Shown here: positions 4,203 through 53,235 of the stretch, one piece after another
How positions within the stretch are numbered: the first letter of the stretch is position 1
Layout of the letters: the number at the start of each line of letters is the position of its first letter
NCBI RefSeq assembly: GCF_005885635.1
Contig: NZ_VATY01000004.1
Coordinates: 186,001-250,000 of the forward strand
Reading direction: 5' to 3'
Origin: Maribacter algarum (ex Zhang et al. 2020)
Lineage (GTDB): Bacteria; Bacteroidota; Bacteroidia; Flavobacteriales; Flavobacteriaceae
Length of the DNA stretch: 64,000 nt
The notes under the pieces: model-generated
The model's database searches: none
Seen by the model: the letters and a program-made list of their open reading frames with translations, nothing else
What the model was told of the DNA's origin: nothing
Position numbers and translations under genes: made by a program

Positions 4203-4240
4203 AAAATCCTTTATTTACGGGGCATAATCGGTGTAATACA
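4203..4240 (-). promoter_or_regulatory. Two-box direct-repeat regulatory motif (copy B, degenerate second box)
   Basis: The minus strand reads TGTATTACACCGATTA, and a weak second half-site about 21 bp later. The first box is nearly identical to the one upstream of the paralogous gene (11519-11555) and sits at the same distance (65 bp) from the TAnnTTTG box. Duplication of the whole gene with its promoter may explain the likeness. Confidence 0.5.
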
Positions 4241-4377
4241 ATCCAAAACTAAAACATAATCAAACAAGGGACTGCATTTGGAATTGACTATTTTATCTAA
4301 ATAGTCTTTAGTAGAATGAGTAGTTAAAAATAGCAATAATTTATTGTAATGTACTTAAATCCATAAATATTTGAACT

Positions 4378-4407
4378 AAAAAGGCTCCTTAATAGAGGAG
4401 CCTTTTT
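4378..4407 (-). terminator. Rho-independent terminator of the 2328-residue gene
   Basis: A perfect 12-bp inverted repeat (AAAAAGGCTCCT / AGGAGCCTTTTT) with a 6-base loop lies 22 bases downstream of the stop codon at 4430. Runs of A and T on either side make it potentially bidirectional. Confidence 0.85.
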
Positions 4408-4429
4408 GCGATATTGGTCATTTAGTACT

Positions 4430-7400
4430 TTAGTTTCTTATCCATAATTTTATAAGAGTTGGTTTGCCTTCACTCATGGCAATACGTACAAAATAGATTC
4501 CATCACCAAGTGTGGCGACTGGTAAGCGGTACACTCCATTTTGTTCAATTTCTTGAGCCAAATAGCCCCCGAGATAACGACCTCCGACATCATGCAAGGT
4601 TATATTCAAAACCCTCATATCCGTTGGTTGGTTAATGACCTGTATATGGGCAAATCCACCATCTGTTGGGTTTGGAGGGTTACTTTGTAGAATGATATCC
4701 ATCTTATCTGTAGGATCGTCAACCACGGTAATTGTAAGAGTTGCGGTATCAGTCAATCCTCCATCGTCGGTAACAGTCAACATAACTTCATAAGTACCTG
4801 ATACTTCATAAATTTTTTCTAAATCTGCTTCAGTTGAAGTAGTTCCATCTCCAAAATCCCATAGATAACTTGCAATTCCAATATTATCTGTTGAATTACT
4901 TCCCGTAAATGTCACTAGCAAACGTGGTGCTCCAGAAGTTGGTGTTGCTTCAGCAACCGCAACCGGTGCGTCACCCATACCACCTTCAGGTACAACTGTT
5001 ACGGTTACTTCGTCAAAAGCCATTTCACCTTCATCATCAGTCACTGACAGTCTAAAAACATACTCCCCTTCGACAAGATCACTTGCAGTTAGGTCAGCCG
5101 TATCAGCACCTGTCAATGTAGCTGTTCCTGGGCCGCTTTCTTGAGTCCATTGATATGTCAGCATACCTCCATCAGGATCCGACGCCATGCCATTTAGAAC
5201 AGTGCTGTTCGTTGGTAAGGTTATTGTTTGATCTGATCCTGCATTTACATCCGGTGGACGTGTTTCATATACACCAATACCCGAAATTTTTGGAAATTCA
5301 ACTACCGACGTTAATGTAATAGTCAGCATACCATCAGTTACAGGAACATTCGTTAAACTTTCTATTATGGCAGTAGCACTTCCTCCCGCAGCTGCAACGA
5401 TATCATAATTGCTAATTTGAGCTTCGTTTTCAACTTGAATATTAAATATTCGAGATCCTACTCCTCCAGCTTGACTTCCGACTCCATAGAACAACTCTGC
5501 AAAATGTAAATCGACATTGTAATTTCCATTTATTACCGGGATTTCATACACTAAAGTACCTGAAGTACTAAAACGCTCCGTCTGGTATAATTCGTCGTTT
5601 TCAGTATTTGCGATTGCTATTGCCTCTTCAAAAATCGAACCGCCCACGAAATATTGATCCGCTGTCCATTCTTGAGTATTGAAAGTGAACGCCGGTCCGC
5701 CAGAATTAATTAATAGGCTAGATGGTTCACTGGCTACGGTGATTGTAACCTCATCACTGCCCATATCATTTTCGTCGTCTATAGCTGTCAAACGAAAAAC
5801 ATAATCTCCCTCCACCAAATCACTAATATCTGGATCTTCAATAGTAGTGCTACTAAAAGTAGCTGTATTGGGACCACTTACCTGTGTCCAGATGTATGAA
5901 GCTATGGCACCACCATCCGGATCGGTAGCTGATCCATCCAATGTAAGACTATTATTAGGTAAGGTAATTGTGCGGTCATCACCAGCAAAAACCATTGGCG
6001 CATTACTTAAGCCTGGAACGACTACTTCAATACCAGAAATTTTTGGAAATTCAGTAACGCCTGTAAGTGTTATTGTTAAACTTCCATCATTTACGGTGAT
6101 ATCGGTAAAATTCTCTATAATAGCGGTTGCACTACCACCTGCCTCGGCAATAATATCATAATTAGTAAGTGTGCCTTGGCCACCCTCAATATCGACATTA
6201 AATATTCTAGATCCAACACCACCGCTCGATCCAGCCCCTGGAACTCCATAAAAAATTTCTGCAAAGTGTAAGTTTACATTATGATCTCCATTACTAACAG
6301 GTATTTCATAAATTAAATCTCCAGTGTGAAAACGTTCTGTTTGATATAACTGATCATTATCAGTATTAGCAATTGCAATGGCGTTTTCTACAATCGTTCC
6401 ATTAGTAAAGTACTGGTCTTCAGACCAAGTGGTTGAATTGAATGTATAAGTCGGTCCTCCAGAATTTATTCGAATTGCTGGGGACTGATTTGAAACCGTT
6501 ATGGTAGCCTCATCAAAACCTGTATCGGTCTCATCATCCGTTGCTGTCAATCTAAATACATAAACACCTTCAATCAAATCAGAGGCCACTAGAGTCTCAG
6601 TAGTGTCACCAGTTAAGGTAGCTGTACTTGGTCCACTTACTTGCGTCCATTGATAGGATACAATAGCACCTCCATCGGGATCGCTAGCCGAACCATTTAA
6701 TGTTGTATTGCCGGGCAAAACATCTTGATTAGGACCAGCATCCACTATGGGTTCGTCATCGGCCACCGGTACAGTTTGATTCTCGTAAATTCTTGGAAAA
6801 TTACGCAATTCAGAACCGACAAACCATCCGTTGGAAACTACATCTAAATCCCCGTCGTTATCCAAATCAGTTACTCGAGCACCATCATGGTGTTCCTGAC
6901 CAGGGATTCCGTCATTAATCACTTGTTTTATGAAGTTTCCACTATCACAAAGGTCGTTCTCAAAAACAATAAGCCTGTATTGACCCAACCATTCTCCAAC
7001 TACAATATCTTTATCCCCGTCGAAATCGATATCAGTGGCGAATACGCTCAAAGAACCCTTGACATCTGGGTCCAATACCCTTTTCGTCCATGGCTGAGTA
7101 GGGTCTGCAGGAGCTTCCCACCATGCAAATTCAAATCTTGCGGGATTTGAACCAGCTCCAAAACCTAACTGACCAACAACAGCATCTAAATCACCATCGC
7201 GATCAAAATCCGCTAGTTGAGCTCTGTCGGCGGTAGTCACATAGGAGATACCGGTGGAAATAGTCTCCCAAGTTCCTCCATTGTTGCGTATCCAATTCGT
7301 ACCTTGAAACAGATCTAAATCATTATCTTGATCAATATCTCCGGCTTGAATATCTTCACCTGTCGAAACAGCTCCCACCATATCAACAAGTGACCATGTA

Positions 7401-10400
7401 CCAGTAGTTGGATCCGTAGTCGGGGTCAACATTTGCATAGGTGAGCCCGAAGTTTCTGCGCCATTCCAGTTAATGGCCATTTGATATGGACCTCCAACAG
7501 AAAATACACCACCGGCAATACCAGCCAAGAAAGGTTCATTGTATGTAGTATTTCCTGAGGGAATATTTGTAAACACCGTAAAACCGCCTGACCCATCATT
7601 TTGAGCCCAAACTAAATCGGATCCTTGATAACCCAATGGGCTATTGCCATCATCAGTGGTTCCTAAAAGGTCAAGGTCACCATCTCCATCAAAATCATAT
7701 ACCCAGACAACATTATCGAAATCGGTGCCAATGGTGCTTCGAGCCCAAGTGCCTTGAATCGTACCTGGATTTTTATACCACCATCCGCCAGTAACAATAT
7801 CTTTTAAACCATCACCGTCAAAATCAAAATCTGCAAAAGTATAGACAGATACTTGAGGAAGTGAGGTGGTTTCTAACTGTTTTACTCCCCATTGATCTGG
7901 GAATGGTGTTGTGTTACACGTAATAGCCCCAGTTACATTTACCGTCACCTCATCAAAAATGCCTGTGCCTGTGTGGTCTGCATTAAATAATTCCAGCTTA
8001 ATGGTATGTGCACCTAAACTCAATCCGTCTATAGAAATAGGTTCATAACTGTAATACGGCCCAACCATCATATCATCAATATAATAATGCATGTGTGTAT
8101 CACCTTCGAGAATAGTCCAATTCTCAACTGTAAATGCCACTTCAAAAGGTTGATTGACATCCCAGCCATTAGATGGTGAAACAATCGTAATATCTGAACT
8201 AGAAGTATCGTCAAAAGTGTTTGGATTAAGAACTTCAAGAGCACTCACTTTTGGTGATTCTACTATCCCTGTAAATACAATACTTGCAGCCCCATCACTT
8301 ATTTGAACGTTATTAAACTCCTTTGTCAGTGCAGTAGCCGGATTAACCTCGCTTAAAATATCAAAATTAGTAAGTACTTGAATACCTTCAATACTCACAT
8401 TAAATATACGCGAACCTACGCCACCAGTTGAACCTCCACCTGGAAGACCATAATAAATTTCCGCAAAATGTAAACGAATATCGTATTCACTTGATGCTCC
8501 AACTGGGATTTCATAACCAAAGGTACCACCAGGACCAAAACGTTCTGTCTGATACAATGCGTCATCAGTTGTTCCTTCAATGGGCTCTGTTGTATCAAAA
8601 ACAGATCCCCCAGCATTGTAGTTGTCGGCGATAAAAGTTTCTCCACCAACGACCAGTTCACCCCCACCAGCGTTTACTCTTACACCATCAATAACCGAGA
8701 AAGAATATGTTCCTAAGGGAATTCCGAGGTTAGAAGTATTCTGAACATTTTGTACCGTTAATACATAACTGATATTTGAACTTAAAGCAGAGGTGGTTAA
8801 ATAAACAGTTCTGTCATCAACCTGTAAATTCACTGCCGAAATTGTAATACCATTATCAATTGAATAATTGGCCAAAGTTTCGGCACTTACTTCATTCAAA
8901 TATTCAGAAAATGTAACTGCTACCGTTGTCGGATTTACAACATTAACATTTTCAACTATTGGTGGTGAATTATCAGTTGAAATTCCAGCACCAATAAATT
9001 CGATATAATCTAAATCAAAAATATTTGACCCCGAGCCATTAAAAACAAAAAACAAATCATTCGTTCCTCCTGGGTCGGTTATAGGAGTTTCAATATAAAC
9101 CCAAGAACCAGGTCCCCCGGTCGCGGGAACTGGAGTTGTTACCAAAACACTCCCTGTTGGACTTCCTAATCTTAACTCAATTGTACCACCAGCACTATTG
9201 GCGGCAACTCTATATTTTACCGCAGTCATATTCAGAAGGTTTCTCCCATCAAGAGACATGTAACTTCCATCATTTACTCGAAGCGCTGATTGCCCACCTT
9301 CAAGTGGATCATTATTTGGTATAATCGTAGTTCCATTTTGGGAACTGAAAAATTCCGCTTCCTTTCTTTTGGGGTGTATTGTTATTAAGTCCCTGGAAAT
9401 CAAACCTCCAGGATCCGTATACTCTAAAGATATGGAGCCAAAAATATCTAATTGCCCTTCTGTACCATGATTATCGTCTGCTTCAATAGTGAGTACCTGT
9501 GGACAACCGTTTATTGAAGGTTCGGGATGTACGTGATTTAAATGCCCAAAGCCTGGCACAACTACCACATCATTGCAATCAACGGTTAATCCCTCATCTA
9601 CTACTTCAATATCAATATTCAAATCATCTCCCCAATTGAAGAGCCCCCCTACAACAGGAGAGTTAATTGTATAAGTTGCCAAATTGTTACCTGCATAAAT
9701 CGTAACATTTTTAATGCTCTGTCCATTTGTTGGATTGCCGTCATTCACCTTTACTTGCGCATTGAAAGTTCCAGCTGTAGTATAAGTATGGGTAGGATTA
9801 GGATCTGTAGAATCAACCGTACCGTTACTATCAAAATCCCACTCATACGTTAAAGGGGAATCTCCATCTGGATCGGTAGTACCTGCGGTCGAAAAATTAA
9901 CAACCAAAGGCAAGTTTCCATTTGTTGGAGTAGCACTAAGTTGTATTACCGGAGGGCTATTCGTTGTAATACCCGTATAATCAACTCTATAAAGTTTGCC
10001 CGATGGACCGGCATCACTACTACAACATGGAACACCATAAGCTAAAATGTACATTTTGCCATCTGGACCAAGTTCCATATCAATAAAGCCCTCTGTAGAG
10101 GCCGGGAATGTAGAAGGACCAAATTGAGGAACATTGCTAAATGAGGTTTCGCTGCCTAGATTCTGTACAACATTTCCATTGACGTCAAGGTTAATAACAT
10201 AGATTCGGCTTGTATTAAAATCGAAAAAGAAATAGGCGTCATCAAATTCGATTGGAAGTCTTTGTTGATCAGTTTGACCAGGGTCATAGTCATATCTAAA
10301 ACCTGACATTACACATTTAAAAAAACCACCAAATGATAAAAGAGAGGGTTGCGCCGGTGGAAGATCTGTCGCTCCTGTATTAAAAATTGAAGTATTTACT

Positions 10401-11416: not shown

Positions 11417-11474
11417 AGCAATGCTTTGTTAAAGGCAAAATCAAGTTCATTTCGGTAGGGGTCGGTTTGGACCT

Positions 11475-11482
11475 CAAAGATA
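11475..11482 (-). promoter_or_regulatory. -7 promoter element of the 2328-aa gene
   Basis: The minus strand reads TATCTTTG, an exact TAnnTTTG match, 59 bases upstream of the start codon. No TTG occurs at the usual 17-23 bp spacing, which would fit a promoter that needs an activator at the upstream motif. Confidence 0.55.
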
Positions 11483-11518
11483 ATTTAATAACAATTAATG
11501 CCGAAAATACCCTAACGC

Positions 11519-11555
11519 TTTTCGTTTAAAATTAGGCGTTAATCGGTGAAATACA
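11519..11555 (-). promoter_or_regulatory. Two-box direct-repeat regulatory motif (copy A)
   Basis: The minus strand reads TGTATTTCACCGATTAACG, then TTTAAACGAAAAG. The two half-sites (CACCGATTAA and AAACGAAAAG) are in direct orientation, 21 bp apart. The first box is 65 bp from the TATCTTTG box. It matches copies at 4203, 18189, 23776, 23858, 26970, 27054 and 53201. Confidence 0.55.
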
Positions 11556-11785: not shown

Positions 11786-11813
11786 AAACCCCTGAAAATT
11801 TTCAGGGGTTTTA
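11786..11813 (-). terminator. Rho-independent terminator of the wza/wzc operon
   Basis: A perfect 28-base palindrome (AAAACCCCTGAAAA and its complement) lies 25 bases after the stop of the wzc-like gene and runs into a T tract on the minus strand. Confidence 0.85.
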
Positions 11814-11837: not shown

Positions 11838-14213
11838 TTAAAATTTCCACCATTTTTTCTGAGATTTACCATAACCATAGCCATACTTACCTCCATAGCC
11901 TAAATCAGAGTTTTTAACATCATTGACCACAAAGCACAGTCCCTTAATCTTACCCTCTTCTTGTAATTTTAAGGGGTATCCAACGGCTTTGTTTTCCGTA
12001 ACTCCAGCTCTGGTTACATAAATCATATGATTGGCATATTGACTTATGAGTAAGGTATCGGTTACCACCATTAGCGGAGCCGTATCCACTATCACGTAAT
12101 CATATTTATCAGACACCTCATCAAAAAGTTCTTTCATACGATCGCTCATCAGCAGCTCGGCTGGGTTAGGCGGTATTCTACCTGAGTATACCACATCAAT
12201 AGTATTGTGATGTACTAACATTGGATTGATAATATCTTTAGTGTTCAGCGTATTGTCATATAAATACTCTGTAAGTCCCGCATCCTTATTTCTACTAGGT
12301 TTAGACATTTTATCAACATTACTGCCAGTGAAAAACGTGTAAATTTTTGGATTTCGAATATCCGCTCCAATTAGCAAAACTTTCTTATTTGTACTTGCTA
12401 AAATCATAGACAGGTTCGTAGAAAGAAAGGTTTTACCTTCACCTGGAACACTTGAAGTAACAAAAATAACATTGTTTTTACCCTCTTTAGACATTTTGGT
12501 TTTTATCAAATAGTCCAAATTCGTTCGTATAATTCGAAGAGACTCGGCTAAAACAGACCTATCTTCTTTGATTACCAACTTATCTTCTTTACTTGACAAT
12601 TTTGGAATTTCTCCTAAAACAGGAGTATCGGTAGTGAGTTTTTCCAAACTATTCATATTATGAACCTTGGTATCCAATAGGTCCTTACCATAAATAACTG
12701 AAAAAGGAATTAACAGTCCAAAAATGAGGGATGCCAAGTAAACCAGGTTTTTTCTTGGAGAAACTGGAAATCTGCTTACACTATAACCACTATCAATAGT
12801 TTTAGATTTTGGTTCTTTTGAGGCCACTGCTATTTGAGATTCCTCTCTTTTGGTAAGTAAATACAAATACAACTGTTCTGTAGTTTGTTGCTTTCGAGTT
12901 ATTTCCCGCAAAGCTCTTTCATTCTTAGGAGAGGAATAAACTTTGGAGTTAAATCTTGCCTGTTGACCACTAAGTGAATTTACGGTCAAACTATAATTAT
13001 CGACAGTACTTTTCAAGCTAGAAGATAAGCTTCCCTTTAAGCCATCTAATTGTTGATCTAGATTGACAATAATTGGGTTTTTTTCATTTGAGCTTTCGAG
13101 CAAACGTTTTCTCTCAGAAACCAATTTGTTATATTGTGCAATAGCGCTATTGGTAGCAGGATCTCCTAAATTAGCTGGTAAAACTTCATATCCCTTTTGA
13201 GAATCTACTAAATTGCTCATCGAAGCGGCCATATTCAATTGGTTTCTTGCCGCAGCTAATTCTTGCTGATTTGCAACACCAGCACTCAGATTTATATTAG
13301 TTTCAACCGGTATATCAACCACACCTTGACCAGTTTTAAAGTCCTGAGCATCTTGATCAACGTTGGACAGACTACCGTAAATCGCCGCAATTCGGTCATC
13401 AATGAATTTTGATGTTTTATCTGCAATGATTTGCTTATCCTTTACAGCACTTTCATTATAGACCTTGATTAAAGAATTTACAATATTAATTGCCTTTTCT
13501 TTAATGGGGTCTTCTAAACTTATGTCGACTATGTTGGACTTATCATCACTATTTACAATATTCATTTTGCTCCTGTAACCTAACGCAACCATATCAACAG
13601 GTCTTACAGAAACTTGTAATTTCTCATCTTTATATTTATCGAAGCTTTCTATATTAGGGGTAATAACAATATCACCCATAGGAGTACTAATATTTTTACC
13701 GAAAGAGTATACCTTTACCGGTTTATCTTCCTCTTCACTATAACCGAATGTGGTAGATGAAGAAAGTGTAATATAAAAATCAAAATTTGCATTATTTACC
13801 GTTGAATCCTCGGCGATAAAATTCAAATTAATAGGCGGGTTATTGTATAGTTCTGTACTGATAACATTGCCTAAAACACGAATCTTAGTATTCAACCTAA
13901 GTTCCTTTACGACATCAATGAAATTAGATCGTGAACCAATTAGTTCAATTTCATCTATTACTTTGTTCTTTCCTCCACCCAAAACGTCTAAATCTGAAAA
14001 TGCGGAAAGTCCGGAACTAGAGTTTTCATCTTCCAGTATCTGAATTTTAGCCGCAGCAGCGTACTGAGGGGTGGTGTATCTAATATACACCGAGGCTAGA
14101 ATCAAAGCTAAAATTCCTGAAAAAACAAACCACTTCCAATATTTGGTATAACCAGAAATGACTTCCTTTAAGTCGATGTTTTTATCCGTAGGATTTTGAG
14201 AATCAAGATTCAT
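11838..14213 (-). CDS. wzc: Wzc-type polysaccharide co-polymerase / tyrosine autokinase
   Basis: An inner-membrane protein that controls chain length and export of surface polysaccharide together with Wza. Of 791 residues, the first transmembrane helix lies at about 28-48, then comes a long periplasmic Wzz/GNVR-like coiled region, a second helix at about 488-508, and a cytoplasmic BY-kinase domain. Visible kinase motifs are Walker A GEGKT (591-595), Walker A' (LLIGADIRNP) and Walker B (YVIVDTAPL). The C-terminus is a tyrosine cluster (YGGKYGYGYGK), the usual autophosphorylation tail. It is the last gene of the operon, 24 bases after the wza-like gene. No Wzb-type phosphatase gene was seen in the window. 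Confidence 0.93.
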   Translation of the reverse strand: MNLDSQNPTDKNIDLKEVISGYTKYWKWFVFSGILALILASVYIRYTTPQYAAAAKIQILEDENSSSGLSAFSDLDVLGGGKNKVIDEIELIGSRSNFIDVVKELRLNTKIRVLGNVISTELYNNPPINLNFIAEDSTVNNANFDFYITLSSSTTFGYSEEEDKPVKVYSFGKNISTPMGDIVITPNIESFDKYKDEKLQVSVRPVDMVALGYRSKMNIVNSDDKSNIVDISLEDPIKEKAINIVNSLIKVYNESAVKDKQIIADKTSKFIDDRIAAIYGSLSNVDQDAQDFKTGQGVVDIPVETNINLSAGVANQQELAAARNQLNMAASMSNLVDSQKGYEVLPANLGDPATNSAIAQYNKLVSERKRLLESSNEKNPIIVNLDQQLDGLKGSLSSSLKSTVDNYSLTVNSLSGQQARFNSKVYSSPKNERALREITRKQQTTEQLYLYLLTKREESQIAVASKEPKSKTIDSGYSVSRFPVSPRKNLVYLASLIFGLLIPFSVIYGKDLLDTKVHNMNSLEKLTTDTPVLGEIPKLSSKEDKLVIKEDRSVLAESLRIIRTNLDYLIKTKMSKEGKNNVIFVTSSVPGEGKTFLSTNLSMILASTNKKVLLIGADIRNPKIYTFFTGSNVDKMSKPSRNKDAGLTEYLYDNTLNTKDIINPMLVHHNTIDVVYSGRIPPNPAELLMSDRMKELFDEVSDKYDYVIVDTAPLMVVTDTLLISQYANHMIYVTRAGVTENKAVGYPLKLQEEGKIKGLCFVVNDVKNSDLGYGGKYGYGYGKSQKKWWKF

Positions 14214-14237
14214 TTGAGATTTCCTTAGGTTCTAGAA

Positions 14238-15017
14238 CTAATTTCTCGTAATCAATAAAACGGTAGAGGTAATTAAAATAGAAGCGATCGAGACGGCAAT
14301 CGTAGCTCTATTATCCAAACTTGAGGCAGTAATCGCCGACTGATTTGGTTCTACATAAACCACGTCGTTTTGGGTTAAATAGAAAACTGGTGAGCTCATA
14401 GCCTCCTTTTTTGTCAAGTCAACTCTTGTATAAACCTTAGTGCCATCAAAATCACGGATAACCATTACATTCTCACGAATTCCTTTCACCGTTAAATCAC
14501 CTGCAAAACCTAATGCTTCTAAAATGGTAATTCTCTCCCCATTAACCGGATAAGTACCAGGTCTATTAACTTCTCCTAAAACAGTTACTGTAAAATTCTT
14601 TAATCTGATATTTATAATTGGGTCCTTTAAATATTCTGAAAGTCTATCTCTCAATAAATTTCGAACCTCATCAGCAGAAAATCCTGATATTTTGATTTTT
14701 CCAATCACAGGAAAATCTATTTCACCTTCTTTATCGATTAAATAATCAACTTGTTCTGGTCGGATACCACCTTCTGCAGCTCCTCTAAAAAGATTAAAAG
14801 GCGCACTAGCTTCACTGTTGAGTGTTGATACATGGATACTAACCAAGTCATCAACTTTGAATTTAGGAGTAAAACTATTTTTATCTACAATAGTCTCAAA
14901 ACTTCCTGTATTCTGAAAATAAACCACTTCCTTCTTTGAAGCGCAAGAGGATAGAAAAAGAACAGATACCATTAAAAATGAGAATATCCATCCAAAACTT
15001 CTGTTTTGTTTTAACAT
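14238..15017 (-). CDS. wza: Wza-type outer-membrane polysaccharide export lipoprotein
   Basis: Forms the outer-membrane channel for polysaccharide export. The start at 15017 is preferred over an in-frame ATG at 15041 because it gives a standard lipoprotein signal peptide with lipobox LSSC at Cys25. A Poly_export domain follows (FKVDDLVSIHVSTLNSEASAPF, then VIGKIKISGFSADEVRNLL), then an SLBB domain (TVTVLGEVNRPGTYPVNGE), and a C-terminal hydrophobic helix. Residues after the Cys (ASKKE) are basic, as expected for a lipoprotein facing the periplasm. It sits between the dehydratase and the wzc-like kinase. Confidence 0.92.
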   Translation of the reverse strand: MLKQNRSFGWIFSFLMVSVLFLSSCASKKEVVYFQNTGSFETIVDKNSFTPKFKVDDLVSIHVSTLNSEASAPFNLFRGAAEGGIRPEQVDYLIDKEGEIDFPVIGKIKISGFSADEVRNLLRDRLSEYLKDPIINIRLKNFTVTVLGEVNRPGTYPVNGERITILEALGFAGDLTVKGIRENVMVIRDFDGTKVYTRVDLTKKEAMSSPVFYLTQNDVVYVEPNQSAITASSLDNRATIAVSIASILITSTVLLITRN

Positions 15018-15053
15018 AGTATATAGTGTTATTTTGTGCAATATTAGTGAAAA

Positions 15054-16994
15054 TTATGATTGGAAGATTTTCTTTTCACCTTTATTAGTCATAGTAGATT
15101 TCTCTTCATTCTGCTCGTCAAGCTTGCAAAACTCCGAATTATTTGAAACATATTCAGGTACAATTTCCTTCATTAAAGTCATGGTATTTCCATTGAAAAA
15201 CATATTTGACACACAAAGCTCATCAATTTTGGATTTCACCAATGCGTAATCTAGTTCCTTGACTTTTCCTATTAATATTTTTTTGTGATAGGTCGGAAGC
15301 GTGTTTTCTCCGTTAGCAAGTAGTTCTTCATAAAGTTTTTCACCAGGACGCAGACCTGTGATTTTAATGTCAATATCTTCAGGATACTTCAAGCCTGATA
15401 GCTTGATCATATTCTTCGCCAAATCAAATATCTTTACTGATTTACCCATATCGAATATAAAAATCTCTCCACCTTCACCCATTACCGCAGCTTCTAAGAC
15501 TAATTGAGAAGCCTCAGGAATTGTCATAAAAAATCTTGTAATGTCTTTATGAGTAACGGTAAGCGGACCTCCTTTTTCTATTTGCTTTCTAAATAAAGGA
15601 ATAACAGAACCATTCGAGCCAAGCACATTTCCAAATCTTGTGGTGATAAACTTGGTTTTATTTTCCTGCTGAACACTACTTATGTACATTTCCGCAATTC
15701 GTTTTGTAGCTCCCATGACGTTAGTCGGATTAACCGCTTTGTCAGTTGATACAAAAACGAACTTATTTACCTTGTGATTCATTGCCAAATCAACAATAGT
15801 CTTGGTTCCCGCAACATTTATTTTTATAGCCTCGTAGTAATTATATTCCATTAAAGGAACATGTTTGTAAGCTGCTGCATGAAAAACCATGGTAGGCTTA
15901 TGCTCCTGAAAATAGGTGTTCATTCGATTCTTATCTCGAATATCCCCTACTATTGGAACAAAATTATGAAACCCATTCTGCTTCAACTCCTGTTGTAAAT
16001 CATACAAAGCTGATTCCGCCTGATCGATAATAATTAAAGACTTATAGTCGTAATTCGCAATCTGTCGAACAATCTCGCTACCAATTGACCCAGCTCCACC
16101 AGTTACCATAATAACTTGATTTTTCAATTGTTCCGAAACCTTCGACTTTTTAATATCAATTGGCGAGCGATCTAGAAGGTCTTCAATCTGAACTTGTTTA
16201 ATTTGAGAAACTTTGAGCTCTCCATTAATCCAACTATCTACTGGTGGTACTATCTTTACTTGTACTGGAAATTCCACTAGGCTCTCCACCAGCTCACGCA
16301 ATTCGTTGGCGTCTACATTGTTTATAGATACAATTATTTCGGAAATATCCTTTGAGCTTAGGAAATACTCAGATAGAACATCCTTTCCAAGAACCATAAC
16401 GCCATTGATGATTTTCCCTATTTTTTTAGGATCATCATCAAGGTAAGCTACCACTCTGGCATTACTACTTGTTTGATTGGTAATTGCGTTGTAAGTAAGA
16501 ATTCCTGACTCCCCTGCACCATAAATCAAAACACTCTTAGTAACCTTGAATTTTTTGATCAAGTTGAAAAAAGCCGTCTTGAAAATGTATCTCGAAGCTA
16601 TTAGAGCTATGAAAGCCAACAAACTATGAATAATAATAATTCCCAATGGAATGGTGAAATTATCCACAAAAACAAACTGCCTATTAATTATAACCAAGAA
16701 AATGGTTAATATACTAGAGAGGCAAATTGCATTGAAAATTTTATAAACGTCCCTTACACCTGTATGGCGCACCACACCTTTGTAAGATTCAGTGAACATA
16801 AAAGAAGATATGGCTATTACGGCAACTATCGGAAGTTGAATAAATAGGTCTTCGCTTTTAAAATCTAAGGTTAGATTAAACCGAATTATATATGCTAAGA
16901 CAAAACAAATCGATGTCAAGAAAACATCAATTGCTAGTACCAACCACTTTGAAGCATATCTGTGGGCATTGCTTACAAGGTAATTTTTTATCAT
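15054..16994 (-). CDS. Membrane-bound nucleoside-diphosphate-sugar 4,6-dehydratase (PglF/WbpM/CapD type)
   Basis: Converts a UDP-HexNAc, usually UDP-GlcNAc, to the 4-keto-6-deoxy sugar. Its 646 residues have four N-terminal transmembrane helices, a first Rossmann-like nucleotide-binding region (GAGESG), and a C-terminal SDR domain with GGAGSIG at 299-305. The catalytic position has Met427 and Lys431 (NVMGATKR) instead of the classic YxxxK, which is the form found in WbpM-like dehydratases. The C-terminus has the usual GLRPGEKLYEELL motif. It overlaps the aminotransferase gene by 4 bases (ATGA), so the two products probably act in sequence. Confidence 0.92.
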   Translation of the reverse strand: MIKNYLVSNAHRYASKWLVLAIDVFLTSICFVLAYIIRFNLTLDFKSEDLFIQLPIVAVIAISSFMFTESYKGVVRHTGVRDVYKIFNAICLSSILTIFLVIINRQFVFVDNFTIPLGIIIIHSLLAFIALIASRYIFKTAFFNLIKKFKVTKSVLIYGAGESGILTYNAITNQTSSNARVVAYLDDDPKKIGKIINGVMVLGKDVLSEYFLSSKDISEIIVSINNVDANELRELVESLVEFPVQVKIVPPVDSWINGELKVSQIKQVQIEDLLDRSPIDIKKSKVSEQLKNQVIMVTGGAGSIGSEIVRQIANYDYKSLIIIDQAESALYDLQQELKQNGFHNFVPIVGDIRDKNRMNTYFQEHKPTMVFHAAAYKHVPLMEYNYYEAIKINVAGTKTIVDLAMNHKVNKFVFVSTDKAVNPTNVMGATKRIAEMYISSVQQENKTKFITTRFGNVLGSNGSVIPLFRKQIEKGGPLTVTHKDITRFFMTIPEASQLVLEAAVMGEGGEIFIFDMGKSVKIFDLAKNMIKLSGLKYPEDIDIKITGLRPGEKLYEELLANGENTLPTYHKKILIGKVKELDYALVKSKIDELCVSNMFFNGNTMTLMKEIVPEYVSNNSEFCKLDEQNEEKSTMTNKGEKKIFQS

Positions 16995-18121
16995 TTGGTA
17001 AGTTCTTTAAGTATTAAAGCAACTATTCTTTCTAAGTCTTGATTCGTTAAATTTGATCCACTTGGCAGGCAAAGGCCTCGCTCAAATAGGTCTTCAGAAG
17101 TTCCATCTGAATAATTTGGGGAAGTTTCAAAAATGGGTTGCATGTGCATTGGTTTCCACAATGGACGTGATTCAACATCATCCTCTAAAAGAGCATAACG
17201 AATTCTTTCCTTCATTTCGTATGAAGGGGTCAAAATACATGATAGCCATCTATTGGAAAAGAAACCCTTTGGTTCATTTAGAAACTCTATTTCCTCCAAA
17301 TGTTGTAAGCTAGCTTTATAAAATTCAAAATTCGATCTTCGCGCCTCAACACGCTCATCAAGCACTTCCATCTGCCCTCTACCAATTCCCGCCAAAACGT
17401 TACTCATACGGTAATTGTAACCAACGTGAGAATGTTGGTAATGCGGGGCATCGTCTCTTGCCTGAGTCGCTAAAAAGACTGCTTTCTTCTTAAATTCTTC
17501 ATTTTTGGTGACCAGAGCACCACCTCCTGAAGTTGTGATAATTTTATTTCCGTTGAAAGATAAAATACCTATTTCGCCAAAGCTTCCGCATTTAACACCA
17601 TTATAAGTGCTTCCTAAAGCTTCGGCACTATCTTCGATTATTGGAATATCATATTTATTGGCAACTTCCGTGACTTCTTTTATCTTATAGGGCATTCCAT
17701 ATAGATGGACCGCAACAATCGCTTTTGGTTTTTTCCCCTTAGCAATTCTATCAACAATTGCCTTTTCAAGCAGTTCAGGAGACATGTTCCAAGTTTCTCT
17801 CTCGCTATCAACAAAAATCGGTTCTGCACCCAAGTATTTGATTGGATTCGCAGAAGCCGAAAAAGTTAGGCTTTGACACAATACTTCGTCACCATGCGAC
17901 ACTCCAAGTATTTCGAGACCTAGGTGAATTGCAGCAGTACCTGCACTTAAGGCAGCTACATGTACGCCATCTTTAATATAGTTTTGGATGGCTTCTTCGA
18001 AAAGGTTTACGTTTGGACCAAGTGGTGCTATCCAATTGGTTTTAAAAGCCTCATCAACATAGCTCTGTTCGTTGCCTCCCATATGGGGTGAGGAAAGCCA
18101 AATCTTTGTTTGTGTCTCCAC
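16991..18121 (-). CDS. PLP-dependent sugar aminotransferase (DegT/DnrJ/EryC1/StrS family)
   Basis: Transfers an amino group to a 4-keto sugar nucleotide. At 376 residues it has family length. The PLP-binding segment EDSAEALGS and the Schiff-base lysine Lys193 in SFNGNKIITTSGGG are visible. It is the first gene of the minus-strand operon and overlaps the 4,6-dehydratase downstream, so its likely substrate is the UDP-4-keto-6-deoxy-HexNAc, as in the PglF-PglE pair. The product would be a UDP-4-amino-4,6-dideoxy sugar; stereochemistry cannot be read from sequence. Confidence 0.9.
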   Translation of the reverse strand: METQTKIWLSSPHMGGNEQSYVDEAFKTNWIAPLGPNVNLFEEAIQNYIKDGVHVAALSAGTAAIHLGLEILGVSHGDEVLCQSLTFSASANPIKYLGAEPIFVDSERETWNMSPELLEKAIVDRIAKGKKPKAIVAVHLYGMPYKIKEVTEVANKYDIPIIEDSAEALGSTYNGVKCGSFGEIGILSFNGNKIITTSGGGALVTKNEEFKKKAVFLATQARDDAPHYQHSHVGYNYRMSNVLAGIGRGQMEVLDERVEARRSNFEFYKASLQHLEEIEFLNEPKGFFSNRWLSCILTPSYEMKERIRYALLEDDVESRPLWKPMHMQPIFETSPNYSDGTSEDLFERGLCLPSGSNLTNQDLERIVALILKELTK

Positions 18122-18154: not shown

Positions 18155-18182
18155 CAAAAGTAATTATACTTTATTACAACAA
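18155..18182 (-). promoter_or_regulatory. Promoter of the aminotransferase-wza-wzc operon
   Basis: The minus strand has TTG (18182-18180), 17 bases, then TACTTTTG (18162-18155), a full match to the Bacteroidota promoter pattern. It lies 34 bases upstream of the start codon and 34 bp downstream of the second box of the two-box motif. Confidence 0.65.
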
Positions 18183-18188
18183 GTTCGA

Positions 18189-18223
18189 ATTTCGTTTAAT
18201 ACTTAAAATTTATCGGTTAAATG
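18189..18223 (-). promoter_or_regulatory. Two-box direct-repeat regulatory motif (copy C)
   Basis: The minus strand reads TTTAACCGATAAA and, 21 bp on, ATTAAACGAAATT. This is the same half-site pair as at 11519-11555, in a region that is not otherwise duplicated. The first box is 55 bp from the -7 box, ten less than in copies A and B. Confidence 0.55.
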
Positions 18224-18338
18224 AAATATTAGACTAGTAAGTAAACTTGAAGTTATTTCTATTTTGCTTAATATACGCTTGAAACAGGAAAATCAGTCTT
18301 TTTGTCGACAATATTTATTCTATTGTAGAGTTATTTTG

Positions 18339-23775: not shown

Positions 23776-23811
23776 TGTATTTCGTCGAAAAAATACGCCT
23801 TTAAACGTCTA
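23776..23811 (+). promoter_or_regulatory. Two-box direct-repeat regulatory motif (copy F)
   Basis: TGTATTTCGTCGAAAAA is followed, 20 bp from core to core, by TTTAAACGTCTAA. The orientation is toward the lipoprotein gene at 23946. Confidence 0.5.
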
Positions 23812-23857
23812 AACTATGATGAAAACCCGTAAAACTTGCTGAGTGTTCAAATAATAC

Positions 23858-23894
23858 TGCATTTCATCGGTGAAATTTGCCCTTAATCGATAAA
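23858..23894 (+). promoter_or_regulatory. Two-box direct-repeat regulatory motif (copy E)
   Basis: TGCATTTCATCGGTGAAA is followed, 20 bp from core to core, by CTTAATCGATAAA. The first box is also a near-palindrome (ATTTCATCGGTGAAAT). It ends about 50 bases before the start codon at 23946. No TAnnTTTG box follows it. Confidence 0.55.
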
Positions 23895-26969: not shown

Positions 26970-27006
26970 TGCATTTCATCGAAAAAACCTTCTATTAATC
27001 GATAAA
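26970..27006 (+). promoter_or_regulatory. Two-box direct-repeat regulatory motif (copy D)
   Basis: TGCATTTCATCGAAAAA is followed, 20 bp from core to core, by ATTAATCGATAAA. The first core is 44 bp and the second 24 bp upstream of the TACGTTTG box. The second box therefore occupies the -33 region. Confidence 0.55.
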
Positions 27007-27021: not shown

Positions 27022-27029
27022 TACGTTTG
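27022..27029 (+). promoter_or_regulatory. -7 promoter element of the second beta-helix lipoprotein gene
   Basis: TACGTTTG matches TAnnTTTG. There is no TTG at the -33 position; instead the second box of the two-box motif lies there. The leader would be about 190 bases. Confidence 0.5.
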
Positions 27030-27053: not shown

Positions 27054-27090
27054 TGTATTTCAACGTTATTAGTGCTCAGTTTATCGAAAA
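27054..27090 (+). promoter_or_regulatory. Two-box direct-repeat regulatory motif (copy G)
   Basis: TGTATTTCAACGTTATT is followed 21 bp later by GTTTATCGAAAAT. It lies downstream of the TACGTTTG box, so it may serve a second promoter (near-match TAAAATTG at 27108) or act as an operator. Confidence 0.45.
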
Positions 27091-40975: not shown

Positions 40976-40977
40976 AG

Positions 40978-45842: not shown

Positions 45843-45927
45843 CAATTAGATAATTGAAATAAATAGATTTTTTCCTAAAGGGAATGGCACCAGAAGAAAA
45901 ATGGATACTGAAACAAATTCAGCATAA

Positions 45928-47061: not shown

Positions 47062-47131
47062 TTTGAACGCGAGACCTTAAAACTTGAACGAAAAAAAACG
47101 TAGAATTCTGCAAATCAAGGGAATAACCTTA

Positions 47132-47139
47132 TAACTTTG
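47132..47139 (+). promoter_or_regulatory. Candidate -7 promoter element
   Basis: TAACTTTG lies 29 bases upstream of the TTG start at 47169. No TTG lies at the usual -33 spacing. Confidence 0.4.
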
Positions 47140-47168
47140 CAAGCAGTAACCCTAAACTTATCAATCTT

Positions 47169-48305: not shown

Positions 48306-48396
48306 TCTTATGAAATAAGCCATGACAATTATTTTGTATCAATCGATGTAATAATGGCGAATTCCATCTGATAATATTAAAAAGAACAAAAAACAG

Positions 48397-49596: not shown

Positions 49597-49737
49597 AACC
49601 GAAGATTTTATCTTGAAAAATGACACCATACCGATAGTCAATTAATTTGAACAAGTAATCACGCTATTTATCTATATGTTGTCCATGAATCGATTAATAA
49701 TTTTTAATTTGCTAATCATAGCGCAGAACTGACTGGG

Positions 49738-50340
49738 ATGTATAAACTTTTTTTCAAAAGAGTCATTGATATTCTTTTTTCCCTAGGTGTCTTAACAATA
49801 CTAAGTCCAATCTTCTTAGTAGTATTTCTATTGTTAAGTATCGCAAATAATGGGAAAGCCTTTTTTGTTCAGAAACGTCCAGGAAAAAATGAGGATATTT
49901 TTAAAATAATAAAGTTCAAGTCTATGAATGATAAAAAAGGAATAGATGGTGAACTTTTACCAGATGGGGACAGAATTACGAAGGTTGGTCAATTTGTCCG
50001 TAAAACTTCGTTGGATGAAATTCCGCAACTCTTGAACGTATTAAAAGGCGATATGAGTTTAATCGGGCCAAGACCACTTTTAGTTTCTTACCTTCCTTTG
50101 TATTCCGAAGAACAAAGTAGAAGGCATAATATTCGACCAGGAATAACTGGATGGGCACAAGTCAATGGCAGAAATGCAATATCTTGGGAAAAGAAGTTTG
50201 AATATGATGTGTGGTATGTTGATAATTGTTCATTTTTAGTGGACATGAAAATTTTTTGGATGACCTTTTTAAAGGTGATAAAAAGGGATGGTATTTCGTC
50301 AGATACTAACGCCACTATGGAAACATTCACAGGTAATTAG
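49738..50340 (+). CDS. Initiating phosphoglycosyltransferase (PglC/bacterial sugar transferase family)
   Basis: Transfers the first sugar-1-phosphate to undecaprenyl phosphate. At 200 residues it has the small, monotopic PglC-type architecture: one N-terminal hydrophobic segment (IDILFSLGVLTILSPIFLVV), then KFKSMND, the catalytic Asp93-Glu94 dyad in TSLDEIPQLLNVLKG, and GPRPLL and RPGITGWAQVNGRN. Enzymes of this type often use bacillosamine-type 2,4-diamino sugars or FucNAc-related donors, which fits the sugar genes here. Confidence 0.93.
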   Translation: MYKLFFKRVIDILFSLGVLTILSPIFLVVFLLLSIANNGKAFFVQKRPGKNEDIFKIIKFKSMNDKKGIDGELLPDGDRITKVGQFVRKTSLDEIPQLLNVLKGDMSLIGPRPLLVSYLPLYSEEQSRRHNIRPGITGWAQVNGRNAISWEKKFEYDVWYVDNCSFLVDMKIFWMTFLKVIKRDGISSDTNATMETFTGN

Positions 50341-50345
50341 AACGT

Positions 50346-51365
50346 ATGCAGTTAAGTATTGTCATTCCTTGTTATAATATGGAACGCTATCTACCAGAGT
50401 GTATAGACAGTCTGCTAGATCAAAATTTGAACCCAGCCGAATACGAGGTTATTATCGTTAATGATGAATCAAAAGATTCTACTTTAGTCGTTGCCAACAA
50501 TTACGCAGCCAAGCATGAAAATATAGTAGTTATTGACAAAAAAAATGCTGGGGTTGGTGCTGCGAGAAATTCCGGTTACGATGTAGCAAAAGGCAAATAC
50601 CTTTACTTTTTAGATCCAGATGATTATCTGGCTAAAAATACGGTTACCACGGTTTTAGGGTTAATGGAAAATAATGACCTTGATATTCTTACTTTTCATA
50701 GTATGCCCGTTGTTAAACGACATGTGCCCAATTCATTGAATATAGAACATGGAGTCAAAGAATTAGAGGTGCAGGACGGCATTTCGTATATAGCAAACAT
50801 CAAACATCACAATGAAATTTGGTGGTATTTTATAAAACGTGAATTTATGGTATCCACAGGAATTCGTTTTATAGAAGGAAAATGGATGGAAGATGCCATT
50901 CTAACATCGGAATTATTCTTAAAGGCAAAACGAATGGCACATGCTGATATCGATGTACATCGATATCGAATACTACCCACATCGGCAATGCGGAATAAAA
51001 GCTCGGAACACTATAATAAAGTGATTTATGATAACGCCAATGCAGCACATGTTTATGGCGAACTTATCAAATCAGTGCCTGCAGCGCATGAAAAAGCAGA
51101 ACCTTGTATAAAACGTTTGAAGACGCGACAACAATCCTTTGTCTTTTTTCTCATGGTTCGCTTAATGAAATCCGATATTTCGGTAAAGAAAATACCTGAA
51201 ATGCTTAGTGGCTTCGAAAAAATAGATGCCTATCCCTTGAAAAAATTCATAGGTGAAGATTATCATGGCATTGGCTATTCCTTTCTTGTTTTTATATTTA
51301 ACCGTAAACCTTTGATAAATCCATTTATCAAATTCTTTAGAACCTTTTATAACATAGCCAAATGA
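50346..51365 (+). CDS. Glycosyltransferase family 2
   Basis: A 339-residue GT-A enzyme. The N-terminus reads LSIVIPCYNMERYLPECIDS, followed by IVNDESKDST, GAARNSGYDVAKGKYLYFLD and the metal-site PDDYL. The C-terminal part (residues about 220-339) is helical. It starts 5 bases after the phosphoglycosyltransferase gene and overlaps the ATP-grasp gene by 4 bases, so the three are likely co-translated. Confidence 0.9.
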   Translation: MQLSIVIPCYNMERYLPECIDSLLDQNLNPAEYEVIIVNDESKDSTLVVANNYAAKHENIVVIDKKNAGVGAARNSGYDVAKGKYLYFLDPDDYLAKNTVTTVLGLMENNDLDILTFHSMPVVKRHVPNSLNIEHGVKELEVQDGISYIANIKHHNEIWWYFIKREFMVSTGIRFIEGKWMEDAILTSELFLKAKRMAHADIDVHRYRILPTSAMRNKSSEHYNKVIYDNANAAHVYGELIKSVPAAHEKAEPCIKRLKTRQQSFVFFLMVRLMKSDISVKKIPEMLSGFEKIDAYPLKKFIGEDYHGIGYSFLVFIFNRKPLINPFIKFFRTFYNIAK

Positions 51366-52330
51366 ATATTTTAATTACCTCTGCAGGAAGAAGAGTTTCT
51401 TTAGTGCGGGCATTTCAAAAAGAATTAAAGAAATTGTATCCGGAGTCAAAGGTAGTAGCAGCTGATGCTAAGCCTGAACTATCAGCAGCTTGTCATGCAG
51501 CTGATGAGTACTTTCAGGTTCCTCGGCTAGATAAGCCCGAGTATATTGAGAATCTCATAGTGCAGTGTAAGGAACATGGTGTAAAATTGGTAATTCCAAC
51601 TATTGATACCGAGCTGCTTCTTTTAGCAAAAAATAAAATTCTTTTAGAAGAAAATGGTATTATTCCAATTATAGCCTCAATCTCATTCATTGAAAAGTGC
51701 AGGGACAAAAGAGTTATACATGATTTTTTCGAATCACATAGTATAGCAATTGCGAAAGAGTATAGCAAAGATGATTTTGAATTGCCAATGTTCATTAAGC
51801 CAATTGATGGAAGTAGAAGTGTCGATACTTATCTAATTAAAACCAAGGAAGACCTTACGGAGTACCACTTTGAAAATGAAAAATTAATGTTTCTTGAGTA
51901 TCTAGACCATGACCATTACGATGAATTTACCTGTGATTTATATTATGGAAAAGATCACAAATTAAAGTGTGCAGTGCCACGAAAACGAATTGAAGTCCGT
52001 GATGGGGAAGTAAATAAGGCGGTTGCAATGAATAATAGTTTGGTTGATTACATCAAGGAAAACCTTGCTTATGTTGAAGGTGCTGTCGGTTGTTTGACTG
52101 CCCAATTTTTTAAGCACAAAAGCGAAAGTAAGATTTATGGTATTGAAATTAACCCTAGATTTGGTGGAGGGTATCCACTCTCTTATTTAGCTGGGGCCAA
52201 TTTTCCAAAGTGGATTATTGAGGAATACATCTTAGGTAAAGAAATAAGTGAAAAATTCGATTGCTGGGAAGATAACTTGCTCATGATTCGATACGACGAT
52301 GAAATTCTAGTTCATGGATATAAAGGTTGA
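51362..52330 (+). CDS. ATP-grasp domain protein in the polysaccharide cluster
   Basis: A 322-residue ATP-grasp enzyme resembling the carbamoyl-phosphate-synthase-like group. Visible are ILITSAGRRVSLVRAFQKEL at the N-terminus (pre-ATP-grasp domain), FIKPIDGSRSVDTYLI in the ATP-binding region, and GIEINPRFGGGYPLSYLAGA (about 260-279) with the Mg-binding Glu and Asn. Such enzymes join a carboxylate to an amine or thiol. In this locus, which makes several uronic acids and amino sugars, it could form an amide on the polysaccharide precursor; that is inference. It overlaps a HAD gene by 17 bases. Confidence 0.8.
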   Translation: MNILITSAGRRVSLVRAFQKELKKLYPESKVVAADAKPELSAACHAADEYFQVPRLDKPEYIENLIVQCKEHGVKLVIPTIDTELLLLAKNKILLEENGIIPIIASISFIEKCRDKRVIHDFFESHSIAIAKEYSKDDFELPMFIKPIDGSRSVDTYLIKTKEDLTEYHFENEKLMFLEYLDHDHYDEFTCDLYYGKDHKLKCAVPRKRIEVRDGEVNKAVAMNNSLVDYIKENLAYVEGAVGCLTAQFFKHKSESKIYGIEINPRFGGGYPLSYLAGANFPKWIIEEYILGKEISEKFDCWEDNLLMIRYDDEILVHGYKG

Positions 52331-52970
52331 TCAGAACACAGTTATCGTTTTTGATTTGGACGATACACTTTACAACGAAATCGACTATTTAAAATCGGCC
52401 TATACTGCTCTTGCTAAAGATTTGGAACCCGAAAATTGGGAACAGCTTTATGCTAACCTTTTCTCTCTATATAGGAACAACGAAAACCCGTTTAAATATG
52501 TGAGTGAAAACTTTGGTGTATCTACCACTGAATTGATCGAACTTTATAGAGATCACATTCCTAACATTACTCCTTTTGAAGGTGTTTTGCAAAAATTTCA
52601 AATTATAAAGGATAGAAAGGGTAAAATTGCCATCCTAACTGATGGGCGTAGCAAATCGCAGAGAAATAAAATCAATGCCCTTGGACTTATACCCTATCTA
52701 GATTATATTGTGATTTCAGAAGAAATAGGGTCTGAAAAACCGGATAAGAAAAATTTCAAGTCAATTGAAAATCATTTTAAAGTAAAGAACTATTATTATA
52801 TTGGAGATAATCTCAAGAAAGACTTCATTACTCCCAACCAACGAGGTTGGCAAACCATAGCACTTTTGGACAATGGTTTGAACATTCATTCAAATGCCTA
52901 TCTCTATAATAAAGAAGAACACCTTCCGCATAATTATGTGCTTCACTTTGATCAATTGAACTTCATTTAA
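52314..52970 (+). CDS. HAD-superfamily hydrolase
   Basis: A 218-residue HAD protein. Motif I is VIVFDLDDTLYNE (nucleophile Asp14, general acid Asp16), motif II is ILTDGRS, the Lys of motif III is in SEKPDKKNF, and motif IV is YYIGDN followed by KKDF. All phosphatase residues are present. It overlaps the ATP-grasp gene by 17 bases, so the two probably act together. The substrate is unknown, perhaps a phosphorylated intermediate. Confidence 0.85.
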   Translation: MDIKVDQNTVIVFDLDDTLYNEIDYLKSAYTALAKDLEPENWEQLYANLFSLYRNNENPFKYVSENFGVSTTELIELYRDHIPNITPFEGVLQKFQIIKDRKGKIAILTDGRSKSQRNKINALGLIPYLDYIVISEEIGSEKPDKKNFKSIENHFKVKNYYYIGDNLKKDFITPNQRGWQTIALLDNGLNIHSNAYLYNKEEHLPHNYVLHFDQLNFI

Positions 52971-53200
52971 AAAAATATTCTTCTGACAATAAGTTTTTTG
53001 GCTGAAATTAAAGTTCAATATTTAGTCGAATCCAACCTTTTATTAGAAATAGCTCAAGGAATATGAATATTGGTAAAATTTTTCATGTTTCAACCAAAAC
53101 ATAAACAACTGAAAAATAGCTTATTAACAATTAAGTTCATATTTTTTCTAAATAAGTTGGACAAGAAAAATCCAAATTGTACCTTTGGTCGTATATAAAG

Positions 53201-53235
53201 TGTATTTCATCGATAGTTTTGATCAAACCGATAAT
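53201..53235 (+). promoter_or_regulatory. Two-box regulatory motif (copy H, second box shifted)
   Basis: TGTATTTCATCGATAG is an excellent first box. The best second half-site (AAACCGATAAT) is 18 bp from the first instead of 20-21. It lies about 200 bases upstream of the gene at 53410. Confidence 0.4.

Follow-up and report, generated by a model that had tools for sequence, protein, structure and literature searches.

A recurring two-box direct repeat upstream of exopolysaccharide and surface-protein genes in Maribacter algarum, a probable site of LytTR-type regulators

In LytTR systems of the AgrA-RNAIII and VirR type, direct-repeat sites drive surface or virulence genes and a regulatory RNA. 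How exopolysaccharides (EPS) and secreted surface proteins are regulated in environmental Flavobacteriaceae is, to our knowledge, little mapped. Here a stretch of 64,000 nucleotides from Maribacter algarum (the window; contig NZ_VATY01000004.1, in our numbering C15:186001-250000 of a 5.11-Mb genome in 20 contigs) was analysed, in which a non-coding motif of two boxes recurs upstream of EPS and surface-protein genes. A LytTR site is described as a pair of repeats, direct or inverse, of 9-11 nt each with 11-13 nt between them, and no consensus is common to all such sites (PMC4847170).

The closest described system is E. coli YpdB (annotated PyrR) with its target yhjX. The YpdB site consists of direct copies of GGCATTTCAT (PMC4847170), and read directly the yhjX promoter carries this sequence twice with a period of 21 bp, directed toward yhjX. 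The flavobacterial box TGCATTTCATCGA recurs with a period of 20-21 bp, and its half-site TGCATTTCAT matches that of YpdB in 9 of 10 positions. In both cases a stronger site is combined with a weaker one, as in the YpdB sites A and B (PMC4847170). As LytTR sites have no common consensus, this match is a resemblance to one member of the class; it strengthens the suggestion of the initial annotation, which had built on the half-site spacing, that the regulator is of the LytTR type. The site type itself, the LytTR direct repeat, is already known. There are also differences. YpdB has one target (PMC4847170), whereas the exact flavobacterial box is found 22 times in the genome and extends into CGAWAA. 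In addition, YpdB pairs with a kinase, whereas the best profile candidate described below adjoins rpsF/priA or galK-like genes and no kinase. The AgrA-RNAIII and VirR systems belong to another phylum and use another half-site, and in the present case the RNA takes the form of a tandem array with transcription that is predicted only. PorY-PorX-SigP, like the circuit proposed here, is a Bacteroidota system concerned with the control of proteins secreted to the surface (PMC4800418), but it acts on components of the secretion machine via an extracytoplasmic function (ECF) sigma factor, whereas our motif precedes cargo-like and EPS genes with promoters of the sigma-A type.

The motif consists of paired boxes of 13 bases. 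Box 1 is TGYATTTCANCGA, and the more degenerate box 2 (approximately TTWAANCGAWAA in the window sites) follows 20-21 bp later in direct orientation. A two-box matrix was trained on 55 intergenic sites, none of them from the window. Above 18 bits it gave nine matches in the window, all nine intergenic (E, C, D, 60128, F, A, H, 23899(-) and G; Table 1), compared to a mean of 0.10 and a maximum of 1 in 100 dinucleotide shuffles of the window. The recurring motif described in the initial annotation is therefore real, and the six copies which it called clear lie within about 2 bases of where it had placed them. Site B reaches a score of 13.6 only, in a range (>13 bits) where the window has 12 matches and the shuffles 2.19 on average and 7 at most; it was accepted despite the low score because its boxes are conserved in orthologous promoters. 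The match 23899(-), absent from the earlier list, is the opposite-strand reading of site D. Among the three copies listed as weaker, 4240(-) has a good box 1 but no clear box 2 at 20-21 bp, 53201 has box 2 at 18 bp, and 23603, with a score of 12.8 near background, was not accepted. Pattern-perfect copies are present twice in some promoters (loci L076 and L082).

The 22 exact matches of box 1 in the own genome compare with 0 for the reversed pattern, and with one mismatch permitted the counts are 119 and 46. The window is a hot spot, holding 3 of the 22 exact matches (Poisson 0.003 for 64 kb of 5.11 Mb) and 9 of the 119 with at most one mismatch (Poisson 3e-5). Copies were counted in 59 genomes, namely the own genome, 13 of the same genus, 22 of other genera of the family and 23 of the order outside the family. 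The same-genus genomes contain 5-22 exact copies (controls 0-2), and the motif exceeds its reversed control in 13 of 13. In the other genera of the family 0-17 copies were found (controls 0-4), with at least 4 copies in 13 of 22 genomes, and outside the family 0-2 (controls 0-3). When the perfect-tandem pattern was run over a collection of contigs from species genomes, 38 stretches were obtained. The site is intergenic in 34 of them and coding in 4, or 5 under a stricter overlap rule; 35 of the 38 are titled Bacteroidota, and the coding sites are the other three plus one among the 35. Tandem-bearing taxa include Maribacter, Flagellimonas/Allomuricauda, Aquimarina, Cellulophaga, Gillisia, Dokdonia, Flavobacterium and Saprospiraceae.

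The genome scan proposed in the initial annotation also bore out an intergenic bias. The window and 20 further own-genome stretches picked around matches, 21 in all, are 90% coding by open reading frame (ORF) calls; of their sites with at most one mismatch, 29 are intergenic and 10 coding. Of the distinct exact sites with enough flank in all fetched stretches, 58 of 69 are intergenic. These ORF calls come from a simple longest-ORF heuristic and not from a trained gene finder. Matches inside GSDH-type coding regions, where TGTATTTCACCGACAATGG encodes Y-F-T-D-N-G, were treated as coincidence in our reading. A concentration in intergenic DNA would also fit a dispersed repeat, such as a repetitive extragenic palindrome (REP) or a miniature inverted-repeat transposable element (MITE), or chance enrichment in AT-rich intergenic DNA. 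Given the ratio of 22 to 0 against the reversed pattern, the helical phasing described below and boxes that stay fixed while their flanks diverge between orthologous promoters, this explanation is scarcely credible.

The conservation, also called for in the initial annotation, was seen in two sets of promoters. A gene for an EPS-type aminotransferase was searched for in 14 genomes, 4 of which have none; the EPS-operon context was seen in this window only. Both boxes were found by pattern in 9 of the 10 promoters; in the remaining one they were recognised by eye and have a period of 20 bp. When TAnnTTWG was permitted, a -7 element followed 63/64 bp after the start of box 1 in 6 of the 9 promoters matched by pattern and 73/74 bp after it in the other 3, so that the two classes are natural variants one helical turn apart. 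The promoter of a DUF1800 gene keeps both boxes in the 3 genomes compared.

The sequence TAnnTTTG is the -7 box of flavobacterial sigma-A promoters (PMC9723704). At 69 non-redundant intergenic sites, from which similar sites had been removed, it occurs 17 times within 30-115 bp downstream, as compared to 3.3 expected; the reversed and reverse-complement controls gave 5 and 9, and 15 coding sites none. The distances from the box are 41, 42, 42, 45, 51, 52, 52, 53, 62, 63, 64, 73, 83, 83, 84, 103 and 109 bp and are phased at about 10.5 bp (P 5e-5 for 17 boxes). Without two double-counted boxes P is 8e-5 for 15 boxes, or 0.0016 with the period left free between 6 and 20. Where a TAnnTTTG box was found, the motif is thus at a helically consistent distance upstream of a promoter. 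A motif recurring upstream of genes might also be a core promoter element or the site of an alternative sigma factor. This is very improbable: a core element needs a fixed distance, whereas the motif precedes the sigma-A -7 box by anything between 41 and 109 bp and EPS promoters fall into two classes one turn apart, and the sigma motifs given for F. psychrophilum (PMC9723704) are different.

The two half-sites and their period were compared with known regulator families. Among intergenic sites the top self-similarity offset is +20 (6.17 of 13 positions), and at this offset 11 coding sites reach 4.82. The spacing falls within the definition of LytTR sites, at its lower edge, as a 20-bp period leaves 10-11 nt between half-sites of 9-10 nt. 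It equally falls within the AraC-type and hybrid two-component system (HTCS) pattern of two direct half-sites about 21 bp apart, as that family is commonly defined. Sites of AraC-type regulators with this spacing are known, and period and phasing would fit any regulator that binds two half-sites on one helix face. Another direct-repeat binder such as an AraC-family or HTCS regulator is nevertheless an unlikely reader of the boxes, as the half-site agrees in nine of ten positions with that of a LytTR regulator, YpdB.

We therefore consider it quite probable that the motif is bound by a response regulator of the LytTR type, which most likely activates sigma-A promoters and has EPS, surface-protein, lyase, TPR-kinase and small-RNA (sRNA)-like targets. 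A phosphorylated LytTR regulator would occupy both half-sites, one per monomer, on one DNA face. From there it would contact sigma-A RNA polymerase from about 40-100 bp upstream of the -7 element, at whole-turn distances, and this contact would activate a surface-matrix programme. LytTR binding, activation, the signal and the LytTR protein that may read the boxes are what we infer from sequence.

As stated in the initial annotation no LytTR protein is encoded in the window; the 24 LytTR matches of the own genome all lie elsewhere. By eye, membrane segments appear to replace the receiver domain in the LytTR proteins at own-genome loci L011, L028 and L032, as in membrane-bound transcription regulators, and those at L021 and L025 have degenerate receiver-like N-termini without the usual aspartate motif. 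Four motif-rich genomes have 7-14 LytTR genes and five motif-poor ones 3-15, so that the presence of LytTR genes alone does not discriminate. The matrix scan near LytTR genes covered the 24 own loci, a further 50 in nine genomes of the family, and 16 of one ortholog group. Two-box sites were found only at a locus with a UbiA-type gene, a lytTR gene (C12:450153-450848) and a TPR-kinase gene, in the own genome and 6 orthologs; elsewhere there was one single box. The kinase has TPR, HisKA_2 and HATPase domains. The alignment shows the two boxes in 10 of 13 same-genus loci, the own one included, and in 10 of 10 they lie exactly 88 bp from the -7 element of the kinase promoter, in reverse orientation. 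By locus, this lytTR/TPR-kinase system is the best candidate reader.

The phylogenetic profile points to a different candidate. An orphan LytTR gene at C15:39863-40552 adjoins rpsF- and priA-like genes, and its paralog at C12:220871-221554 a galactokinase-like (galK-like) gene. This type (at least 57% identity) is present in 16 of the 22 other-genus family genomes. At least 4 copies of the motif are found in 13 of the 16 genomes with the orphan type and in none of the 6 that lack it (Fisher 0.001, Mann-Whitney 0.0004, both uncorrected for kinship). The type had been picked after a nine-genome comparison, in which all motif-rich genomes with a full set of loci had it while G015 and G033 lacked it, and the profile test is therefore not fully independent; for G018, G027 and G029 that comparison covered 4 of 14, 6 of 10 and 3 of 15 LytTR loci. 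Of the LytTR proteins tested the orphan type tracks the motif best and is the best candidate reader by profile. No site >16 bits that would indicate autoregulation was found near 30 loci of this type. As a tentative and rather unlikely extension, the orphan type (two paralogs, no adjoining kinase gene) might be a cell-surface master switch, which through one phased two-box site would control EPS export, giant secreted adhesin-like and GSDH proteins and lyases, feed back on a TPR kinase and drive an array of ~72-nt sRNA-like units with a 33-nt core almost invariant across seven genera.

It is also possible, though we give it clearly less than even chances, that several LytTR paralogs with overlapping half-site preferences read a family of regulons, an explanation which overlaps with that of a single LytTR-type site. 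The 24 LytTR matches in the genome would provide for this, the EPS variant TTTRACCGATAA...TTAAACGAAA differs from TGYATTTCATCGAT, and no single LytTR protein tested fits the distribution perfectly. However, the geometry is common to both variants, with a period of 20-21 bp and, in the EPS promoter, the -7 box 63 bp on, a distance which in our reading may also apply to the sRNA-like array of two genomes.

A number of observations weigh against a LytTR-read surface regulon. The 11 coding sites reach a self-similarity of 6.00 at offset +21, and the gapped pattern ATTTCANCGN{2,32}AANCGA occurs 86 times vs. 59 reversed across 7 genomes and is rarer than its reversed control in G005 and G006. In the own genome 6 of the 17 matches listed have a 20- or 21-bp spacing, and 4 of the 17 are window sites. 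This pattern was too weak, and therefore the matrix and the offset analysis were used instead. The -7 boxes at the 69 sites number 17 only, and in the window no TAnnTTTG is in reach downstream of C, D and F, while that of G is out of reach. The boxes of the TPR-kinase locus are missing in 3 of 13 same-genus and 3 of 3 other-genus loci. The LytTR protein at C12:450153 has no ortholog >40% identity in the motif-rich G018, G021, G022, G028 and G030, five different genera, and because of this it was rejected as sole reader. The orphan type also occurs in G023, G026 and G027, where the motif has 1-2 copies, and of the six genomes that lack the type three are small (1.9-2.3 Mb). Among the loci fetched, no own LytTR protein compared is present throughout the four motif-rich genomes and absent throughout the five motif-poor ones. 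The large GSDH proteins of three relatives are preceded by reversed single boxes (scores 14.9, 14.6) or none (6.5, 8.3). Furthermore, some targets are not of the matrix type: malate dehydrogenase, PPK2, DUF1800, a XerC/D-like integrase and the gap before an mreB-like gene. Finally, the gene downstream is on the opposite strand at 30 of 92 intergenic sites, on the same strand at 61 and absent at 1, in a set which counts a few sites twice (L126 and L146 appear identical to L076 and L082).

A strict orientation was accordingly rejected genome-wide, as about a third of the intergenic sites are directed away from the annotated gene. The initial annotation had every listed copy point toward a downstream gene, which holds for each accepted copy of its list; the added site at 60128 does not do so. 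Of 57 sites between co-directional genes, 39 follow the direction of these genes (P 0.008). Small peptide ORFs or sRNA-like units come after several of the wrong-way sites, and some of the 30 may therefore drive unannotated transcripts. An RNA-family scan of 20 loci without an annotated downstream gene (ARAGORN on 19) gave a single tRNA match.

The exopolysaccharide and matrix-protein regulon that had been proposed is supported, with limits. EPS export genes, lyases and surface giants lie near the sites, next to the non-matrix targets named above. Among the classes predicted in the window the EPS genes, the HAD-like protein and the 1071-aa beta-helix protein were recovered, whereas the 703-aa protein, expected to be a second beta-helix protein, is of the CBM96/DNRLRE type. 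The domain order of the 2328-aa protein is GSDH-malectin-CBM6-PKD. Its putative link to the type IX secretion system (T9SS) is based on a C-terminal match to the sorting domain Por_Secre_tail, in the right place but below both cut-offs (22.3 bits vs. 27 in Pfam, 20.5 vs. 23 in NCBIfam). The frame of the second giant GSDH protein, downstream of H, has 2788 aa and runs off the window. Exact or one-mismatch sites elsewhere in the own genome precede a PKD-polysaccharide lyase, a second polysaccharide lyase, two GSDH-Big2 giants, a SprB-repeat giant (L047), a TSP3 giant, an FKBP and a DUF2064 protein, which agrees with the predicted proximity to polysaccharide and surface-protein genes; the targets of L034, L042 and L052 match no Pfam family at the cut-offs used. 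The own genome has 12 GSDH genes, of which the four largest (frames of 1999-2788 aa) carry a site, a size limit chosen after the result was known. Eight of the 12 were scanned upstream by matrix, two (L045, L046) were taken from the site survey and two lay outside the scan; six other GSDH genes scanned, one of 1130 aa included, have no site (best score 3.8). Among the products of downstream genes in relatives are a TPR histidine kinase, a peroxidase and an RNA methyltransferase, as well as PKD, MAM, Ig-type, S8 peptidase and M14 peptidase proteins.

Four near-identical units of ~72 nt are located downstream of a PurF-like gene in the own genome, in G012 and in Maribacter sedimenticola. The predicted layout of a unit is a 5' hairpin, single-stranded UAAGAUUUGGGG and a terminator hairpin, and the two units folded gave z values of -3.6 and -4.0. 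Most units are preceded by a TAnnTTTG-like box. The 33-nt core (0-2 mismatches) was found in 20 of the 59 genomes and 7 of 42 genera, with 3-6 copies in 17 of the 20. At L038, L058 and L114 a motif box in array direction lies 77 bp before unit 1, and in G001 and G003 (by coordinates) 77 and 76 bp before it, which makes 76-77 bp in 5 of 5 loci. The array box of the own genome has one mismatch, and a second box there faces the opposite way. If TATTTTAG is taken as the -7 box of unit 1 in the own genome and G012, as we read it, the distance would be 63 bp and thus the EPS geometry; an alternative -7 box in the own genome, TAGATTTG, lies at 68 bp and out of phase. L038 and L058 gave no Rfam match at gathering thresholds (L114 was outside the scan), and literature searches by words and by sequence gave no description of the array among the best-ranked matches (10 of 30 for words). 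If the array belongs to the regulon, the family would have a LytTR-sRNA arm as known from Gram-positive bacteria.

The motif or regulon was likewise not described among the best-ranked full-text matches of the literature search (for example the best 20 of 44 and 25 of 66), as judged from titles and abstract openings, with subscription journals mostly outside its range. The predicted class of reader, the list of targets and the natural one-turn insertion in EPS promoters make the proposed circuit directly testable.

Table 1. Features in the window and the sRNA-like array. Sites A to F are registered at 11555(-), 18225(-), 23776, 23858, 26970 and 27054; spacing is CG to CG; scores are those of the two-box matrix; G000 is the own genome.
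Feature	Position	Strand	Spacing (bp)	Score	Remarks
Site H	4201..4240	-		21.0	box 1 alone clear; upstream of second giant GSDH protein
TAnnTTTG of H	4160..4167	-			73 bp from site H start
Site A, two-box	11519..11555	-	21	22.5	upstream of 2328-aa GSDH/malectin/PKD giant (4430-11416)
TAnnTTTG (-7 element) of A	11475..11482	-			73 bp from box 1 start
Site B, two-box, EPS operon promoter variant	18188..18225	-	21	13.6	box 1 TTCATTTAACCGATAA, box 2 TTAAACGAAA
TAnnTTTG (-7 element) of B	18155..18162	-			63 bp from site B start
EPS genes downstream of B	11838..18121	-			DegT aminotransferase, Polysacc_synt_2 dehydratase, Wza-like exporter (Poly_export/SLBB), Wzc-like (Wzz/AAA_31)
Site C, two-box	23776..23812	+	20	27.8	upstream of 703-aa CBM96/DNRLRE protein
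Site D, two-box	23858..23893	+	20	26.5	in the promoter region of C, 82 bp past C
Site E, two-box	26970..27005	+	20	31.1	upstream of 1071-aa PKD/beta-helix protein
TAnnTTTG of E	27022..27029	+			52 bp from site E start
Site F, two-box	27054..27090	+	21	23.0	in the promoter region of E, 84 bp past E; no TAnnTTTG downstream
Site G	53201..53234	+		20.4	perfect box 1, box 2 at 18 bp; upstream of 683-aa HAD-like protein
Added site, absent from the earlier list	60128..60165	+		24.2	TGCATTTCATCGG
sRNA-like array	L038 3072-3915 (G000 C1:1599227-1600102)	-			also at L058 and L114

The added site at 60128 lies 5 bp upstream of gene 57172-60123, which is on the minus strand, and is directed away from that gene. 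This gene encodes a 983-aa fusion of a glycoside hydrolase family 3 domain and a beta-lactamase-type (serine esterase-like) domain. A conserved copy in a short gap before an mreB-like gene, also directed away, was seen in three genomes (L040 4001, L062 2001 and L067 2002); the naming of these neighbours as purH and mreB is our reading of lengths and an N-terminus.

At L126, L135, L137 and L150 a perfect two-box site follows a gene pair for a Ras-like GTPase and a hybrid histidine kinase. The GTPase was assigned by Pfam in L126, L135 and L150 and the kinase in L126 and L135, while L137 was assigned by similarity only. In L126, L135 and L150 the site precedes an ORF for a hydrophobic peptide of 46-49 aa, followed by a further noncoding stretch. 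In L132, motif copies at ~6028 and about 350 bp on are close to two ORFs for hydrophobic peptides (34 and 31 aa by eye).

Near-identical two-box sites are present in Flagellimonas/Allomuricauda (L117, L120, L127, L128, L139, L147 and L151), 44-45 bp before a gene for a ~311-aa protein (LysM-like by eye) and 4-14 bp after one for a ~421-aa protein. One of each protein was scanned and had no Pfam match; the ~311-aa gene is full length in 4 of the 7 loci. In the own genome an exact copy at L049 4001 (G000 C15:289985), counted as coding, overlaps with the region called as the start of a small GSDH gene. It is directed toward a divergent gene for a protein of >1247 aa with a sub-threshold SprB-repeat match.

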